Below are positions 47,265-55,924 of a DNA stretch of 64,000 nt, piece by piece. The translations under genes were made by a program, and so were the position numbers. Within the stretch, counting starts at the first letter, position 1, and every line of letters starts with the position of its first letter. The notes under the pieces are model-generated. The model was not told where the DNA came from, made no database searches, and saw only the letters and a list, made by a program, of their open reading frames with translations. The stretch spans positions 372,001 through 436,000 of the forward strand of contig NZ_SGXD01000001.1 of the NCBI RefSeq assembly GCF_004216915.1. The letters are read 5' to 3'. Origin of the DNA: Motilibacter rhizosphaerae. Lineage in GTDB: Bacteria; Actinomycetota; Actinomycetes; Motilibacterales; Motilibacteraceae.

Positions 47265-48182
47265 TCAGCGGGGGGAAACGCTCTCCCGCACCGGGACGGA
47301 TTCCACGTAGAGGCGTGACGGGAGTTCATCGAGAGTCTGGAACAGGACTGGGTCCATCTCGCTCCCGGCGGTGGAAGCCATCTCCTTGCCGAAGGCCTTC
47401 GCCCAGGAGCGCCAGACCTCGCGCTCCTCGGCGTCCAGCGGTACCCGCTCGACGAAGATGAGTTGCACGCGCATGGGCCGGAGCCTGGTTCCGTCGAGGA
47501 CGCGGACGCGGATCTCGTCGAGCTTCTGCCACCACTCCGGTTTTTGCTTCCGGACGGAGCGCATGTGCGCGGCGAGGGAGTCTGGGAGCTTCTCGCTGAG
47601 CGAGGAGTGAAGGGCGGGGCGGTAGAACTTGACGGCGATCCGCTCGGCGAAGGCCAGCGCGTCGTTCTCGGTGGCGAAGCCCGGTCTCGGCACGCCGGCG
47701 AGGAGAGCCTCCTTGGTGACGGGCAAGCTGACCCGGAGGTCGACGGCCCAGTCCCCTGGGGAGGGCGGAGCTGTAAGGGCGACCAGGTCGACCCGGCCGT
47801 GCTTCTTGATGGTGGTGATGCTGTTCTCGGACCACCCCTCGAGCGAGATGACAGGGCTGACCTGGACGAAGGGGTGGCGGCTGCCCGGAGGGGCAGCGCC
47901 GATGTCGCAGGTCTGGCTGGTGATCGCGGCCCAACGGAACGGGATGTCACTACGAGAGACCTGCCAGTTACGGAGCGCCCGGTCGGCGGCTTCCGCTGTT
48001 GTGTCGACCAACACAGGTGCGACGTACGCGTCGGTGCTGGGCTCGGCCCACGCCAGGTGTGGGCCGTCCAGTAGGTCTCCCTGAGACCACCGGCCGAGGA
48101 GGGCGGCCTCGTCATCCGTCCAAGATCGGCCGTAGTCGTCGACGGAGAGGTCGCCGGGTGGGTCGGGGGCCGGTTCGGTCAC
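47265..48182 (-). CDS. hypothetical protein, third gene of a GTGA-coupled operon
   Basis: 305 residues, soluble. Not assigned to a family. Notable features are an N-terminal WSQGDLL motif, an internal ITSQTCDIG element, a middle basic segment and a Trp-rich C-terminal half (KPEWWQKLDEIRVRVLDGTR; EVWRSWAKAFGKEM). SQTCDI-type sequences occur in poorly characterised accessory-region proteins. The GTG at 48182 overlaps the upstream HTH gene by 4 bp, so the three products are likely made together and may act as one system. Confidence 0.72.
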   Translation of the reverse strand: MTEPAPDPPGDLSVDDYGRSWTDDEAALLGRWSQGDLLDGPHLAWAEPSTDAYVAPVLVDTTAEAADRALRNWQVSRSDIPFRWAAITSQTCDIGAAPPGSRHPFVQVSPVISLEGWSENSITTIKKHGRVDLVALTAPPSPGDWAVDLRVSLPVTKEALLAGVPRPGFATENDALAFAERIAVKFYRPALHSSLSEKLPDSLAAHMRSVRKQKPEWWQKLDEIRVRVLDGTRLRPMRVQLIFVERVPLDAEEREVWRSWAKAFGKEMASTAGSEMDPVLFQTLDELPSRLYVESVPVRESVSPR

Positions 48183-48994
48183 TCGCGGAGTCCCGCCGGG
48201 GCGTCGACGGAGCCGTCCCGGCCGACGACGCGGCCGTCGGCGGGGACGCTCCGGCGCCGGTCGGGTCGGCGGGCGGCGACGTCCGGCTCGTCGCCGGGGT
48301 GGCGGTCGGCTCCGGCGGCGGCGAGCTGGGCGATGGCGCGCCGATGCGGGTCGGCAGCCCGTGCTCGGGTGTCGAGCAGGGCAGCGGCTACGAGGCGGTC
48401 GGTGTCGCCTGCCCGGAAGGCGGTGCGGCGGTCTGGATCACGGCGGATCCACGCGGCTACTTCCTCGGGCGTGCCCAGGAGTGCGAGGAGGTCCTCGGCG
48501 ACCTGGACGAGGAGCCAGAGGGAGCCCTGGGTCTGCACTCGAGGGGTGACGCCACCGAACCACGAGTAGAAGGTCCGCGGGGCGATGCCCGCGGCGGTGG
48601 TGACGTCGGCCAGGGGCAACCCCATGACCTGCGAGACGTAGTGGACGGCCTCGAACGCGCTGTCGGGGCGGCTGGGCTCCCGCATGTCTGCGGCGGACCG
48701 TGCGGCCCGGGCGGGCGGAGCCAGAGCGTCGGCGACCCTGCCGACGACGACAGCTACGCCGTCCAGGACGGAGGTCACGATGTCGGTCGCGGTGAAGCGG
48801 AAGGTGTCGCCGACAGTTGACGGGGCGCTGCGGAACTCGCCGTCCATGTCGGCGATGGCGGCCCTGACGGACAGGTCGCGCACGCCTCGCAGGTCGAGCG
48901 GAGTGCCTGCGCTCGCAGCCGACGACAAGTGCGCGGAGGCCAGGTCCGGGGCGGTGTGACGCGAAGAGAGCGGTTCGACGAGCGTGGCGGTCAC
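48179..48994 (-). CDS. HTH-domain protein, second gene of the operon
   Basis: 271 residues. An N-terminal region with no recognised fold is followed by a helix-turn-helix stretch (AFEAVHYVSQVMGLPLADVTTAAGIAPRTFYSWFGG). A helical segment, VAEDLLALLGTPEEVAAWIRRDP, resembles antitoxin-type Xre proteins. The basic C-terminus is disordered. Starts at the GTG at 48994, overlapping the TIGR04255-like stop. Likely a DNA-binding regulator or antitoxin partner for its neighbours. Confidence 0.7.
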   Translation of the reverse strand: MTATLVEPLSSRHTAPDLASAHLSSAASAGTPLDLRGVRDLSVRAAIADMDGEFRSAPSTVGDTFRFTATDIVTSVLDGVAVVVGRVADALAPPARAARSAADMREPSRPDSAFEAVHYVSQVMGLPLADVTTAAGIAPRTFYSWFGGVTPRVQTQGSLWLLVQVAEDLLALLGTPEEVAAWIRRDPDRRTAFRAGDTDRLVAAALLDTRARAADPHRRAIAQLAAAGADRHPGDEPDVAARRPDRRRSVPADGRVVGRDGSVDAPAGLRE

Positions 48995-49872
48995 TGGGCC
49001 TCCTCCCTCTGGTCGGTGTCGCCCGCATTCTCCACGGTGGGGGCGGCCTCGGTGTAGGGCCCCAAGGTGTCCCGCCACTCCCGTGTCACGATCTGCTGGA
49101 ACAGCGACAGGGCGCTGCGGTTCAGCGCCTGAGCCAGGACGGCGAGGGCTTCGAGATCGAACCGGGCCGAGCGGGTGTCGAAGACGTCGATGTCGAGCAG
49201 GTAGGCGAAGCCGTCTCCGGCGGTGGCGTCGCGGAAGGGACCGTGCCGGATGATAGCCCCGGACGTCTCTTCGAGCTGCATCTCGACCTGCTGCTGGAGG
49301 CCGACGACCCGTGTGCCCAGTTCCGGGTGCAGCAGGGGGCCGAGGAAGGAGGGCTCAATCCTCCCGCGCCATGCTTGCGTCCCCTGGGTGTCGCCGCCGG
49401 CGAGCCTGTTGACGTAGCGCAGCCCGACGCGCTGCACCAAGTGCGGGTCCATGACGTCCCGCACCGCCGACGCGGCCGCGGCAATCTGTGGGGCCAGGCT
49501 GTCCCGGTACCGGCGGTAGGCGTTGGCCTGCACCACCAGGGAGTCCGGGAAGACCGTGACCGCTAGCAGTCCGTCGGCCGTCGTGAGTCTGACGCCTGCG
49601 ACCCTCGGGTCCAGGGCCGTTACAGGCCCCTCGGGGCTCATCTCGACGCGGACCTGCTGCTGCTGGACGGGCTCGACGTGCGCGAGGTGCAGGCCGTGGC
49701 CGGCGGCCGCGTCGCGGAGCTCGAGGCCGCGGTCTTCATCGAGATCGTGCCCCGTCCGCGCCCAGCGGACCTCTGCCACGGCGACCTGCAGGGGCGCGTC
49801 GCGCAGGAGGTCGCGCGTCGCCGGCGGCAGCCCGCCCAGTGGCAGATCAGGCTGGCTGGTGGTCGTGGTCAT
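48991..49872 (-). CDS. TIGR04255-like protein, first gene of the operon
   Basis: 293 residues from the ATG at 49872. The pattern fits TIGR04255: an early beta-strand AVAEVRWA, a middle VQANAYRRYRDSL, the signature VQRVGLRYVNRLAGG, then EMQLEETSGAIIRHG, FAYLLDIDVFD and a long C-terminal helix with LNRSALSLFQQIV. This family is sporadic, of unknown function, and common in accessory DNA. Preceded by an inverted repeat at 49901-49916 that could be an operator. Confidence 0.72.
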   Translation of the reverse strand: MTTTTSQPDLPLGGLPPATRDLLRDAPLQVAVAEVRWARTGHDLDEDRGLELRDAAAGHGLHLAHVEPVQQQQVRVEMSPEGPVTALDPRVAGVRLTTADGLLAVTVFPDSLVVQANAYRRYRDSLAPQIAAAASAVRDVMDPHLVQRVGLRYVNRLAGGDTQGTQAWRGRIEPSFLGPLLHPELGTRVVGLQQQVEMQLEETSGAIIRHGPFRDATAGDGFAYLLDIDVFDTRSARFDLEALAVLAQALNRSALSLFQQIVTREWRDTLGPYTEAAPTVENAGDTDQREEAQ

Positions 49873-49900: not shown

Positions 49901-49916
49901 CCTGCATACTCGCAGG
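49901..49916. promoter_or_regulatory. inverted repeat upstream of the TIGR04255-like operon
   Basis: CCTGC-N6-GCAGG, 29 bp upstream of the start codon. A candidate operator for the HTH protein of the same operon. Confidence 0.4.
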
Positions 49917-50142: not shown

Positions 50143-50652
50143 CTACCGGCGTGTCCGCGGGCTACCCCCGACGACGGGGATGCCGAACCGCTGGTCGAAC
50201 TCGGCCCGCTCCTCGACCGCGAGGGCCTGCGCGTGTCGGCTCATGGTCACCGTGAAGCGCTGCATGAAGCCCACCTGCCCGAGGAGCACGGGCCATGTGG
50301 GGCGCCAGGACCTGAGGAAGCCGACCTCGTCTTCCCACTCGACGTAGTCGCTGTCGCTCCCTCCCGGCGCCAGGAGGCGTAGACGTACGTCGAGGAAGCG
50401 GACGGTCACGGTGTCCCCGCCCAGACCTAGTTGGATCGTGCGGTCGGAGGCGTCGGCGTCCACGCCGATCGCGGAGGCCAACCACGGGGCAGCGAGCGTG
50501 TGGCTACATCCCGAGTCCACGAGCGCGGAGACCGGCGGACTCACGTCGACCGGACCGCACAGGGCGACGCTGACCACGGGGCGAAGGACGACGCTCTCGA
50601 GGCGCGGGCCGTCCTCCTCGTAGGGGAAGACCCACGGGAACGGTGTGCCCAC
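50143..50652 (-). CDS. retropepsin-like aspartyl protease-fold protein
   Basis: 169 residues with one Asp-Ser-Gly motif in SALVDSGCSHTLAAPW, then IQLGLGGDTVTVRFLDVRLRL and a closing VLLGQVGFMQRFTV, the order of a single retropepsin domain that works as a dimer. There is no signal peptide, so it would be intracellular. It begins 9 bp after the DUF5678-like gene stop and is cotranscribed with it. The substrate is unknown; pairing with a small partner suggests a regulated proteolysis or toxin-antitoxin-like unit. Confidence 0.75.
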   Translation of the reverse strand: MGTPFPWVFPYEEDGPRLESVVLRPVVSVALCGPVDVSPPVSALVDSGCSHTLAAPWLASAIGVDADASDRTIQLGLGGDTVTVRFLDVRLRLLAPGGSDSDYVEWEDEVGFLRSWRPTWPVLLGQVGFMQRFTVTMSRHAQALAVEERAEFDQRFGIPVVGGSPRTRR

Positions 50653-51748: not shown

Positions 51749-53038
51749 TCAGCCGAGCGGCGACGACACAGCCACCGCGGTGACGTGAACGCCGGAAGGC
51801 ACCTCCGTATGCCCGATTGGCGTCGCGGCGAACAGCTCTCCGGCGACGGCGCGGTGGTCCCGCGGGGGGCGCAGTGTGATCTGCTCGCTCCCGAGCATGG
51901 CCCTCACCAGAGCGCCGACGGACGGGGCCGTCGTGATCGCCCGCACAATCTCGGGGCACGTCGCGTCGGCCCAGCCCGGCGTCTCGGTGCGGGCCGCGAC
52001 GGCACCCACGAGCCGCCAGGCGTCCTGGTCGCCCTGCCGCGCGTGATGGACGACCACGCGGCCTCCTGGGAGGAGGCTCCCGCACGGCGCCTCCACGGTG
52101 TGCCGGCCGCCGTCAGCAACCACTCGGACAAGCGCCCGTGTCGGGGATTGCCACCTGACCACCTCGGCCTCGTGCACGCCGACGAGCGGCCACGCCGCAG
52201 GCTCGGCGTCGGACACCGTCAACCTCGGGAACGGGCCCTCGTCGAAGTCGACCCCCGTGACGTGCAGGTCGAACTTGTCGCCCTTGCGCCTGATCTTGGC
52301 GGTGGACCAGACCGCCCTCGCCCCGGAATTGTGCTGCAGGTACACCCGCCCGGCCGCCAGGTCCGCACCAGTCACCTTGAACGTCATCGTCACCTGCTGC
52401 TCGGCCAGGAGGAGGCGTGCGATGACGCGACGGAGCGCACTCCCCTGGTCGCGCCCCAGCAGACGACCGAAGCCCAGCGACAGAGCGCCCTCGGGAAGCA
52501 GCAGCCACCGGGAGTGCTCCGACCGTGTGTCCACCGTCTCGTTCGCGGCGGCGTACACGGGAACGTCGAGCTCACGGGCGAACTCGTACGATGGGATGAG
52601 GTCCATGTCCTCGGACAGAACCACGATGCTGCCGGAACGACGCCCCGCGTTGATGTCGTGCGCAAGCCGCGAGACCTGCATGGCGCAGAGCACGTCGACC
52701 AGCTTCTCCTCAGTGCGGAGGCCGGTCCCCGCGCCCCGCCGTTCGACCAGACGGCCCTCGAGCACCCTGCCTCGGGCATCGGCCGTCACCCGAGCGGCGA
52801 AGTCGGCGTTCTTGTCGAGCTCGCTCGCGAGGTGCGCGGACGGGTTCTTGGGGCCCGTGGTGGCGATGCCGAACCACACCTCCTGCACGTCGAACCCGAA
52901 CCGGGACAGGATCTGGCAGACCCCGGGTACGGAGACGTGCCGACCGACCCCGAATAGGTCCTTGACCTGACCGCGCACGTTACGACTGTCCACGACGACG
53001 TACGCCGGGACGGGGAGCGCAGACCCGGCGATGCCCAT
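51749..53038 (-). CDS. NYN-domain (PIN-like) nuclease-type protein
   Basis: 429 residues; ATG after GGAGG. The N-terminal NYN domain has acidic residues in YVVVDSRNVRG, EEKLVDVLCAMQVSRLAHD and IVVLSEDMDLIPSYEFARE, a metal-dependent RNase fold, followed by PVYAAANETVDTRSEHSRW. The C-terminal 200 residues look like beta-rich domains (TMTFKVTGADLAAGRVYL; ALVRVVADGGRHTVEAP) of unknown role, perhaps RNA binding. The last gene before the putative right end of the transposon. Probably RNA processing or defence. Confidence 0.8.
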   Translation of the reverse strand: MGIAGSALPVPAYVVVDSRNVRGQVKDLFGVGRHVSVPGVCQILSRFGFDVQEVWFGIATTGPKNPSAHLASELDKNADFAARVTADARGRVLEGRLVERRGAGTGLRTEEKLVDVLCAMQVSRLAHDINAGRRSGSIVVLSEDMDLIPSYEFARELDVPVYAAANETVDTRSEHSRWLLLPEGALSLGFGRLLGRDQGSALRRVIARLLLAEQQVTMTFKVTGADLAAGRVYLQHNSGARAVWSTAKIRRKGDKFDLHVTGVDFDEGPFPRLTVSDAEPAAWPLVGVHEAEVVRWQSPTRALVRVVADGGRHTVEAPCGSLLPGGRVVVHHARQGDQDAWRLVGAVAARTETPGWADATCPEIVRAITTAPSVGALVRAMLGSEQITLRPPRDHRAVAGELFAATPIGHTEVPSGVHVTAVAVSSPLG

Positions 53039-53339: not shown

Positions 53340-55637
53340 TCAGGACTGCATGTCGACGAACCGCGAGTAGTGCCCCTGGAACGCCACGGTGATGGTCGCG
53401 GTGGGGCCGTTGCGGTGCTTCGCCACGATGATGTCGGCCTCGCCGGCGCGCGGGGACTCCTTCTCGTAGAGGTCCTCGCGGTGCAGCAGCATGACCATGT
53501 CGGCGTCCTGCTCGAGCGACCCCGACTCGCGCAGGTCGCTCATCATCGGCTTCTTGTCCGTGCGCTGCTCGGGTCCTCGGTTCAGCTGCGAGAGCGCGAT
53601 GACGGGGACGTCGAGCTCCTTGGCGAGCAGCTTCATCGACCGGGAGAACTCGGAGACCTCCTGCTGGCGCGACTCGACCCGCTTGCCGGACTGCATCAGC
53701 TGGAGGTAGTCGACGATGACGAGCTTGAGGTCGTGGCGCTGCTTGAGCCGCCGGCACTTCGCCCGGATCTCCATCATCGTCATGTTGGGCGAGTCGTCGA
53801 TGAACAGCGGCGCCTCGGAGACCTCCCCCATCCGGCGGGCGAGGCGGTTCCAGTCGTCATCGGTCATCGAGCCCGTGCGCATGTGGTGCAGCGGGACGCG
53901 CGCCTCAGCGGAGAGCAGGCGCATCGTGATCTCGTTCTTCCCCATCTCCAGGCTGAAGAAGACGGTCGAGAGGTGGTTCTTGATGGCCGAGGCGCGGGCG
54001 AAGTCCAGCGCCAGCGTCGAGTTGTGCGTCGGCACCATGGCGCGGCCGGCGAGGTAGAGGTGCGACTCGTGCGCGATCTGCACGCAGCGCACGGGCACGG
54101 AGGGCACCGGGCGGACGTCGGTGATGAAGCGGGCGTCGCGCCGGCGCGGGGACCGGGCGCTGCGCTCCTTGTGCAGCAGGCGCTTGCGCTCGAGGCGGAA
54201 CACGTCGTCCTCGGCCGTCAGCGTCACCAGCCACGCGGTCGCGCTGCGCCCCGTGCCGCGGGTCTTCACCGTGCAGCGCATGCCGAGGCCGGCCACGAGG
54301 TCGGCGAGGTCGTCGGCGAGGCGCTGCGAGCCCACACGTACGCGCACCGTCCCGGACGGCTGCACGACGCCGAGGGTGTCGAGCACGCCGGCCAGCAGGT
54401 CGCGGCGCTGGCGCAGCCCCGCCCGGAGGTACGCGGTCGGCAGGTGCGGGGCGTGCACCATGCCGAGCCCGGTGGCGACGGGGCCCACGACGTCGGGCTC
54501 GACCTCGCCCTCGACCCACGCGTCGACCTCGAACTCGTCGTCGGGGTCCTGGCCGAGCGGGCCCGCCTCGCGGCGGCCGAGCCAGGCGCCGAGCGCGTAG
54601 GGCGGGACGGGCAGCTCGCGGTCCGGCAGCTGGAGCGGGCGGGCGTTGGCGACCGCGTGGTCGAGGCCGGTCGCGCCGCTCAGCCGCGCGGCGATCTCGG
54701 CCGTGGTCCGCACCTCGGCGGCCGCCCACCGCGTCTCGGTCACCCACTGGTGCTCGGCGTCGGCGACGACGACCGTCCCGTCGGAGAAGTGCACCTCGTA
54801 GCAGGGGCGGTCGTGCATGACCTCCGTCGCCGCGACGACCAGGGTCGGGGTGCCGTCCGCCGCGAGCACCTCGTCGCCCACGGCGACCTCGCCCATGGTC
54901 GTCCAGCCCGTGGGCGTGGGCAGCGGGGTGTCGAGGGCGAGCGCCTTCCCGACCGCGGGGCGGGCGGCGATGATGACCATCTGGCCGCCGTGCAGGCCGT
55001 TGGTCAGCTCGTCGAGGTCGGCGAAGCCCGTCGGCACGCCGACCAGCTGGCCGCCGCGCGAGCCGATGGCCTCGATCTCGTCGAGCGCGCCCTCCATGAT
55101 CGCGGAGAGCGGCTGGTAGTCCTCGCTCGCGCGCTTGTCGGTCACGCCGTAGACCTCGGCCTGCGCCCGGTCGACGATCTCGTCGGCGTTGGCGCCGTCT
55201 CCGGCGTAGCCCATCTGCACGATGCGCGTGCCGGCCTCGACCAGGCGGCGCAGGACCGCGCGCTCCCGCACGATCTCGGCGTAGTAGCCCGCGTTGGCCG
55301 CGGTCGGCACCATCGAGATCAGCGTGTGGATGTACGCCGCGCCGCCCACCCGGCCGATCTCGCCGCGCCGGGTCAGCTCGGCGGAGACCGTGACGGCGTC
55401 GGCCGGCTCGCCCTTGCCGTAGAGGTCGAGCACCGCGTCGAAGATCGCCTCGTGCGCGGGCCGGTAGAAGTCCCCGCCGCGCAGCGCCTCGACCACGTCG
55501 GCGATCGCGTCCTTGCTCAGCAGCATCGCGCCGAGCACGGACTGCTCGGCAGCCACGTCCTGCGGCGGCAGCCGGTCCTGCCGGTCGCCGGGCCCGTCAG
55601 AGCGCGGCTCCTGCACCAGGACGTCTGCGACCGTCAC
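53340..55637 (-). CDS. dnaB: replicative DNA helicase DnaB with intein
   Basis: Precursor of 765 residues; 457 after intein removal. The N-terminal primase-interacting domain starts LPPQDVAAEQSVLGAMLLSKDAI. The RecA-like helicase core is split at Walker A: RPAVGK (226-231), then the intein (232-539), then STLALDFARAS. Walker B/H2 region is LKLVIVDYLQLM, H3 includes IALSQLNRGPEQR, and the arginine-finger end is AKHRNGPT. GTG start at 55637 after GGGAGGAG. It unwinds DNA ahead of the replisome as a hexamer, so intein splicing is essential for function. Confidence 0.95.
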   Translation of the reverse strand: MTVADVLVQEPRSDGPGDRQDRLPPQDVAAEQSVLGAMLLSKDAIADVVEALRGGDFYRPAHEAIFDAVLDLYGKGEPADAVTVSAELTRRGEIGRVGGAAYIHTLISMVPTAANAGYYAEIVRERAVLRRLVEAGTRIVQMGYAGDGANADEIVDRAQAEVYGVTDKRASEDYQPLSAIMEGALDEIEAIGSRGGQLVGVPTGFADLDELTNGLHGGQMVIIAARPAVGKALALDTPLPTPTGWTTMGEVAVGDEVLAADGTPTLVVAATEVMHDRPCYEVHFSDGTVVVADAEHQWVTETRWAAAEVRTTAEIAARLSGATGLDHAVANARPLQLPDRELPVPPYALGAWLGRREAGPLGQDPDDEFEVDAWVEGEVEPDVVGPVATGLGMVHAPHLPTAYLRAGLRQRRDLLAGVLDTLGVVQPSGTVRVRVGSQRLADDLADLVAGLGMRCTVKTRGTGRSATAWLVTLTAEDDVFRLERKRLLHKERSARSPRRRDARFITDVRPVPSVPVRCVQIAHESHLYLAGRAMVPTHNSTLALDFARASAIKNHLSTVFFSLEMGKNEITMRLLSAEARVPLHHMRTGSMTDDDWNRLARRMGEVSEAPLFIDDSPNMTMMEIRAKCRRLKQRHDLKLVIVDYLQLMQSGKRVESRQQEVSEFSRSMKLLAKELDVPVIALSQLNRGPEQRTDKKPMMSDLRESGSLEQDADMVMLLHREDLYEKESPRAGEADIIVAKHRNGPTATITVAFQGHYSRFVDMQS
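54021..54944 (-). other. DnaB intein (class-3 type) with degenerate homing endonuclease
   Basis: 308-residue intein between GK and ST of Walker A. It begins with Ala232 rather than Cys/Ser. It carries W298 (HQW), C518 (VRCVQI) and T537 (VPTHN), matching the Trp-Cys-Thr triad of class 3 inteins, and ends N539 followed by S540. The central region keeps LAGLIDADG-like blocks, YALGAWLGRREAG and LLAGVLDTLGVV, but both catalytic Asp positions are replaced (Arg and Leu), so the endonuclease is probably dead while splicing is intact. Confidence 0.82.
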
Positions 55638-55924
55638 GAGCACTCCTCCCCTGCTGCTTCGGTGTCGAACAGGTGTCCTACCGGAGACCACCGACAGAGC
55701 GGGTCCGCCCGCCGTCCCGCCGGTGCCCCCGGCCCCCCCGGAGGACCGCGCTGCGCCACCGTACGGACGCCCCCCGGACGACTCAAGGACCCCTGTGCGT
55801 AGCCTGGGGACGACCCTGGGAACGACCGGGGGAAACGTGTGCACACCCTGTGGGAAACCCTGGGGATGACGGCGCGACCTCACGGACACGCCGTCGCTGA
55901 CCTGCGAGGACGGGAATCCACGGG
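55638..55924. promoter_or_regulatory. divergent promoter region of dnaB and MATE gene
   Basis: 287 bp without an ORF. Contains a 10-bp palindrome GTGTGCACAC at 55837-55846 flanked by CCCTGGG/TGTGGGAAAC repeats. No hexamer pair was convincing. Confidence 0.35.

Follow-up and report, generated by a model that had tools for sequence, protein, structure and literature searches.

Relation to described systems

Four kinds of described system come nearest to the operon studied here. In MazEF/PemIK, a DNA-binding partner (MazE) accompanies MazF, the catalytic residues of which are Arg25 and Thr48 (PMC7354611). CmdTAC and other TAC systems combine an effector (an ADP-ribosyltransferase or HigB) with a partner and a SecB-like third component. 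HipBST consists of three overlapping genes that include a helix-turn-helix (HTH) protein and a kinase, and bears signs of lateral transfer (PMC6581861), and the RES-Xre toxin–antitoxin systems pair a RES-domain protein with an Xre-like HTH protein.

The locus lies in a 64,000-nucleotide stretch of Motilibacter rhizosphaerae DNA (hereafter the window) and comprises three minus-strand genes with two GTGA overlaps, at exactly the coordinates proposed in a previous, sequence-only reading of the window:

48991..49872, minus strand: g1, opening gene of the operon, a 293-aa member of the TIGR04255 family with an ATG start
48991..48994, minus strand: GTGA shared by the g1 stop and the g2 start, read from the sequence
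48179..48994, minus strand: g2, Xre-like HTH protein, 271 aa, which begins with GTG and overlaps the end of g1 (GTGA)
48179..48182, minus strand: GTGA shared by the g2 stop and the g3 start, read from the sequence
47265..48182, minus strand: g3, candidate effector, 305 aa, with a QGD...SQTCD core and, at about residues 32-190, a domain remotely like MazF/PemK
49901..49916, no strand: inverted repeat CCTGC-N6-GCAGG, situated 28-44 bases upstream of g1 and no better than chance

As in MazEF/PemIK, a DNA-binding partner precedes g3, and the core of g3 can be aligned with the MazF/PemK domain in its full length, from the GD start through the 'VxS' and VxxxP strands to the DL...K segment. However, Arg25/Thr48 are not conserved in g3, which has a new [ST]QxCD motif and a long C-terminal extension, the partner is Xre-like rather than MazE, and there is an additional TIGR04255 gene. 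The three-gene layout recalls CmdTAC/TAC, with a presumed effector, partner and third component, but here TIGR04255 takes the third place and is not recognisably like SecB, and the effector is neither an ADP-ribosyltransferase nor HigB. HipBST shares with this operon its three overlapping genes, the HTH protein and the signs of lateral transfer, whereas no kinase was found here and the protein families differ. The likeness to RES-Xre systems lies in the Xre-like HTH (PF20432) of five g2 orthologues; by contrast, no RES family appears among the g3 matches and the operon has no RES-domain partner. A description of the g1-g2-g3 module was not found in the open-access literature.

The sequence-only reading had also taken the inverted repeat in the promoter as a sign of autoregulation. 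The repeat is present, but dinucleotide shuffles gave an equal or better one in 35 of 40 cases, and it stays at chance level in the window as well as in most orthologous promoters. The promoter argument for self-regulation fails because the repeat is no better than shuffled sequence.

The three genes are inherited as one unit

Searches with g3 alone over genomes, plasmids, GTDB and IMG/VR yielded 22 loci, many of the mycobacterial ones being copies of one element. One locus (L089) ends at a contig edge and was excluded. In all of the 21 testable loci, g1 and g2 lie directly upstream of g3 in the same order, with orthologues of g1 in every linked locus; this favours a module over the singly scattered, unlinked homologues that the sequence-only reading had named as evidence to the contrary. 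The loci span Actinomycetota, Alphaproteobacteria and proviral contigs, and the genes in high-GC loci were called with a simple ORF picker. The distribution of g3 is sporadic (5 of 396 genomes).

The distance matrices of g1, g2 and g3 correlate with one another across 12 non-redundant loci (r 0.77-0.86; 0 of 2000 permutations). Values of dN/dS, taken from the mycobacterial pair L074-L077 only, were 0.066, 0.134 and 0.065 for g1, g2 and g3, respectively, indicating purifying selection on all three genes; the g2 values from L079 were set aside, as the sequences were not codon-aligned. The three genes are a single co-inherited, overlapping unit. In Mycolicibacterium frederiksbergense (L081, 7032-8829), g2 and g3 are each split in two frames while g1 is intact.

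Protein families and the probable fold of g3

The first gene is a clear member of TIGR04255, as had been proposed from the sequence (NCBIfam model, 4e-24, 85.8 bits against a cut-off of 30, model positions 2-251 of 252). The window copy of the second matched no Pfam, NCBIfam or PADLOC model above cut-off. The HTH previously noted in it was nevertheless borne out through its relatives: HTH_3 was matched in 13 aligned proteins and PF20432 ('Antitoxin Xre-like HTH') in the five mentioned above, the window copy taken by itself having no Pfam match, and Trp145 within the HTH is invariant in the alignment with 14 g2 orthologues. Judged by these matches, g2 is a member of a family with an Xre-like HTH. 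The g2 proteins are about 180-325 aa long, more than typical antitoxins.

Window g3 reached no family above cut-off in Pfam, NCBIfam or PADLOC, and in plain HMM searches PF02452 was matched neither by window g3 nor among the families listed for 25 third genes. A search of solved structures by sequence returned nothing credible for g1 or g3. The g3 orthologues keep G35, Q90, C92, D93, P110, D148 and K157, with the motif GD...[ST]QxCD; in the distant third genes of TIGR04255 operons the GD is mostly kept, and the C positions are kept in all. In profile comparisons with g3, g3B joined clearly (97%) and g3C and g3D weakly, g3C reaching 79% against a cluster of g3 proteins.

For the comparison with PemK/MazF, an alignment was built from PF02452 matches and compared by hhalign. 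The score of the g3 profile rose from 25.6 to 34.7 once all third genes were merged (probability 65%), and the alignment spans the domain end to end. Block-permuted PemK alignments, used as controls, gave a mean of 16.1 (sd 3.2, maximum 24.6) and the reversed one 10.3. Unrelated families generally scored 10-20 against g3, one of them reaching 22.5 against g3A, not far below what g3A itself scored with PemK before merging. In the alignment, the catalytic Arg25/Thr48 of MazF are not conserved in g3, and two positions after the conserved Pro the aligned g3 proteins have I, R, V or F, never Thr. Because the profile match exceeds the controls but the catalytic Arg/Thr are not kept, g3 is probably a relative of the MazF fold with changed chemistry and not a MazF. 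A more specific description is supported, if not proven: g3 may be a MazF/PemK-like beta-barrel that has diverged, with GD, [ST]QxCD, D and K as its different conserved centre and with an extended C terminus. At 305 aa, it exceeds typical type II toxins.

TIGR04255 in other operons

In the window's phylum, 31 of 396 genomes have TIGR04255, as do 17 of 230 genomes of Alphaproteobacteria (the class of Xaviernesmea). Among 36 TIGR04255 places in the phylum, 15 have an HTH gene and a third gene with a GD...C core, as assigned by reading of the loci; at the remaining places TIGR04255 is accompanied by HEPN-like or HicA-like genes or by other pairs, or stands without a partner, with six of the 36 not assigned. 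Partnerless genes were seen in mycobacteria (L044, L046, L047 and L054), and the third genes of L043, L061 and L057 are weakly HicA-like (E 0.045) or HEPN-like (E 0.048) in Pfam, below cut-offs. In Alphaproteobacteria, a different conserved partner pair (about 180 + 150 aa) dominates the TIGR04255 operons. Since operons with other pairs begin with TIGR04255 as well, g1 seems to be the constant, shared part of these loci, with an exchangeable downstream pair.

A bolder generalization, which we regard as doubtful, would make TIGR04255 the hub common to a class of three-gene conflict systems not described before. The downstream pair would be exchanged between an Xre-HTH with an altered MazF fold, a 'WDG' pair in Alphaproteobacteria, HEPN-like genes and HicA-like genes, and in the window version the MazF fold would have acquired a new active centre of Cys-Asp type. 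If so, a widely scattered orphan family would find its role as the part that swappable toxin–antitoxin-like operons have in common, and the MazF fold would gain a branch with a different conserved centre. TIGR04255 is not mentioned by name in the open-access literature searched.

The 'WDG' pair belongs to a second recurrent TIGR04255 three-gene operon, made up of TIGR04255, a 'WDG' middle protein and a third protein of 140-175 aa (L169, L172-L173, L175-L180, L182-L184 and L042). In the alphaproteobacterial operons, this third protein is unrelated to both g3 and MazF. For g1, whose family has been given no fold, a limited comparison with three SecB-like sequences showed no similarity to the SecB chaperone (probability 0.1). 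Beside some TIGR04255 operons, in L088 (3406-4323) and downstream of g3 in L050, there are genes that by eye look like defence proteins of TIR or SIR2 type.

The module travels on mobile DNA

In many loci the module is cargo on integrated elements, a plasmid or proviral contigs. In one mycobacterial genome (G396) it lies about 2.6 kb from a gene that is tyrosine-integrase-like by eye, beside tRNA-Pro, and the 3' end of this tRNA gene is repeated perfectly over 44 bp at a distance of 65.6 kb; these att repeats mark an integrated element. This 65.6-kb element at tRNA-Pro(CGG) (contig C1, 3698167-3763810), with the module near the integrase, has a cargo that is metabolic-looking by eye. Another copy (L010) is located beside an integrase and tRNA-Ser, one is on a conjugative plasmid, and the copies on proviral contigs have a recombinase-like or tail-like gene (by eye) on the same contig. 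A tRNA was found near 7 of 13 module loci versus 1 of 14 control regions, the control regions being shorter and the windows thus of unequal size.

Near-identical copies of the module, and of stretches of the element around it, occur in several mycobacterial species (L074-L082). About 14.5 kb at 97-100% identity is common to L075, L076, L080 and L082, and L078 is 94-97% identical to this block, while the flanks of the blocks are only 78-80% identical in several pairs. Regarding viruses, the first scans with window-type queries gave no matches, and a phage collection gave none for g3 and one weak TIGR04255 match in an unannotated record; among the PHROGs, proviral g1 matches one family of unknown function.

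Candidate functions of the module

The sequence-only reading had proposed a defence or toxin–antitoxin cassette and a search for its three families near known defence genes. The linkage of the three families in one unit, in many loci on mobile DNA, speaks for a module, and the Xre-like HTH and the remote MazF/PemK-like match of g3 lend support to the toxin–antitoxin-like reading; the comparison with defence families gave none to the defence reading in particular. With PADLOC-DB 2.0, g1 and g2 had no match and g3 only an unconvincing one (PDC-M20B, 15.4 bits, E 0.0019). Defence families showed no excess beside the module when 100 neighbour proteins were compared in PADLOC with 102 control proteins, from control loci that happened to include a Dnd/Pbe-type locus.

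From the sequence evidence, we tentatively read the operon as a tripartite toxin–antitoxin-like module with an altered MazF-fold effector, carried as mobile-element cargo, an account to which we give somewhat less than an even chance. g3 would be a growth-inhibiting effector, g2 would bind g3 and repress the operon, and g1, the third component, would either stabilise the complex of g2 with g3 or sense a trigger. Such a trigger, for example infection by a phage or the element being lost, would set g3 free.

The same parts could form an anti-phage abortive-infection system, in which g1 would be the infection sensor, the part played by CmdC in CmdTAC. The three-gene architecture resembles that of CmdTAC (PMC11618068), proviral contigs and an integrated element carry the module, in the latter case close to the integrase, and the sporadic occurrence of g3 fits; yet this function seems unlikely, given a PADLOC match that does not convince, neighbours not clearly enriched in defence families over control loci and a g1 that did not appear SecB-like in a limited test. 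We are also sceptical that the module serves mobile elements as an addiction (stability) cassette, devoid of an anti-phage role. The toxin–antitoxin-like parts and the location of other copies on a conjugative plasmid, a tRNA-integrated element and proviral contigs speak for it; against it, the window copy is chromosomal and no integrase was recognised nearby. The absence of the MazF catalytic residues from g3, the length of g3, its own conserved Cys-Asp motif and g2 proteins exceeding the usual antitoxin length would all suit a non-toxic module, in which g2 would act as a transcription factor, with g1 and g3 as the sensor or enzyme subunits behind some regulatory or metabolic function that the element has. 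This, too, is improbable in our judgement, as the weakly HicA-like and HEPN-like third genes of other TIGR04255 operons, albeit below cut-offs, lean to toxins.

Genes around the window copy

The accessory character ascribed to the region was confirmed, since g3 and the neighbouring gene at 51749-53038 are both missing from the family's other four genomes. The operon stands just beyond an adjoining ssb-rplI-MatE-dnaB block that is conserved in relatives. The broken restriction genes reported earlier as neighbours were not seen among the genes scanned between about 41.9 and 57 kb.

Three further genes of this neighbourhood deserve mention. Adjoining the operon, the gene at 50143-50652 has a retropepsin-like aspartyl protease domain (PF13650, 28 bits). 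The 429-aa protein encoded at 51749-53038 looks like an NYN/PIN-type nuclease by eye and has no Pfam match at 0.01. DnaB (53343-55889, 849 aa) carries about 300 extra residues (320-622) between its N- and C-terminal domains, an intein-like insertion that is missing in two relatives (G002 and G004) and present in a third (G001).
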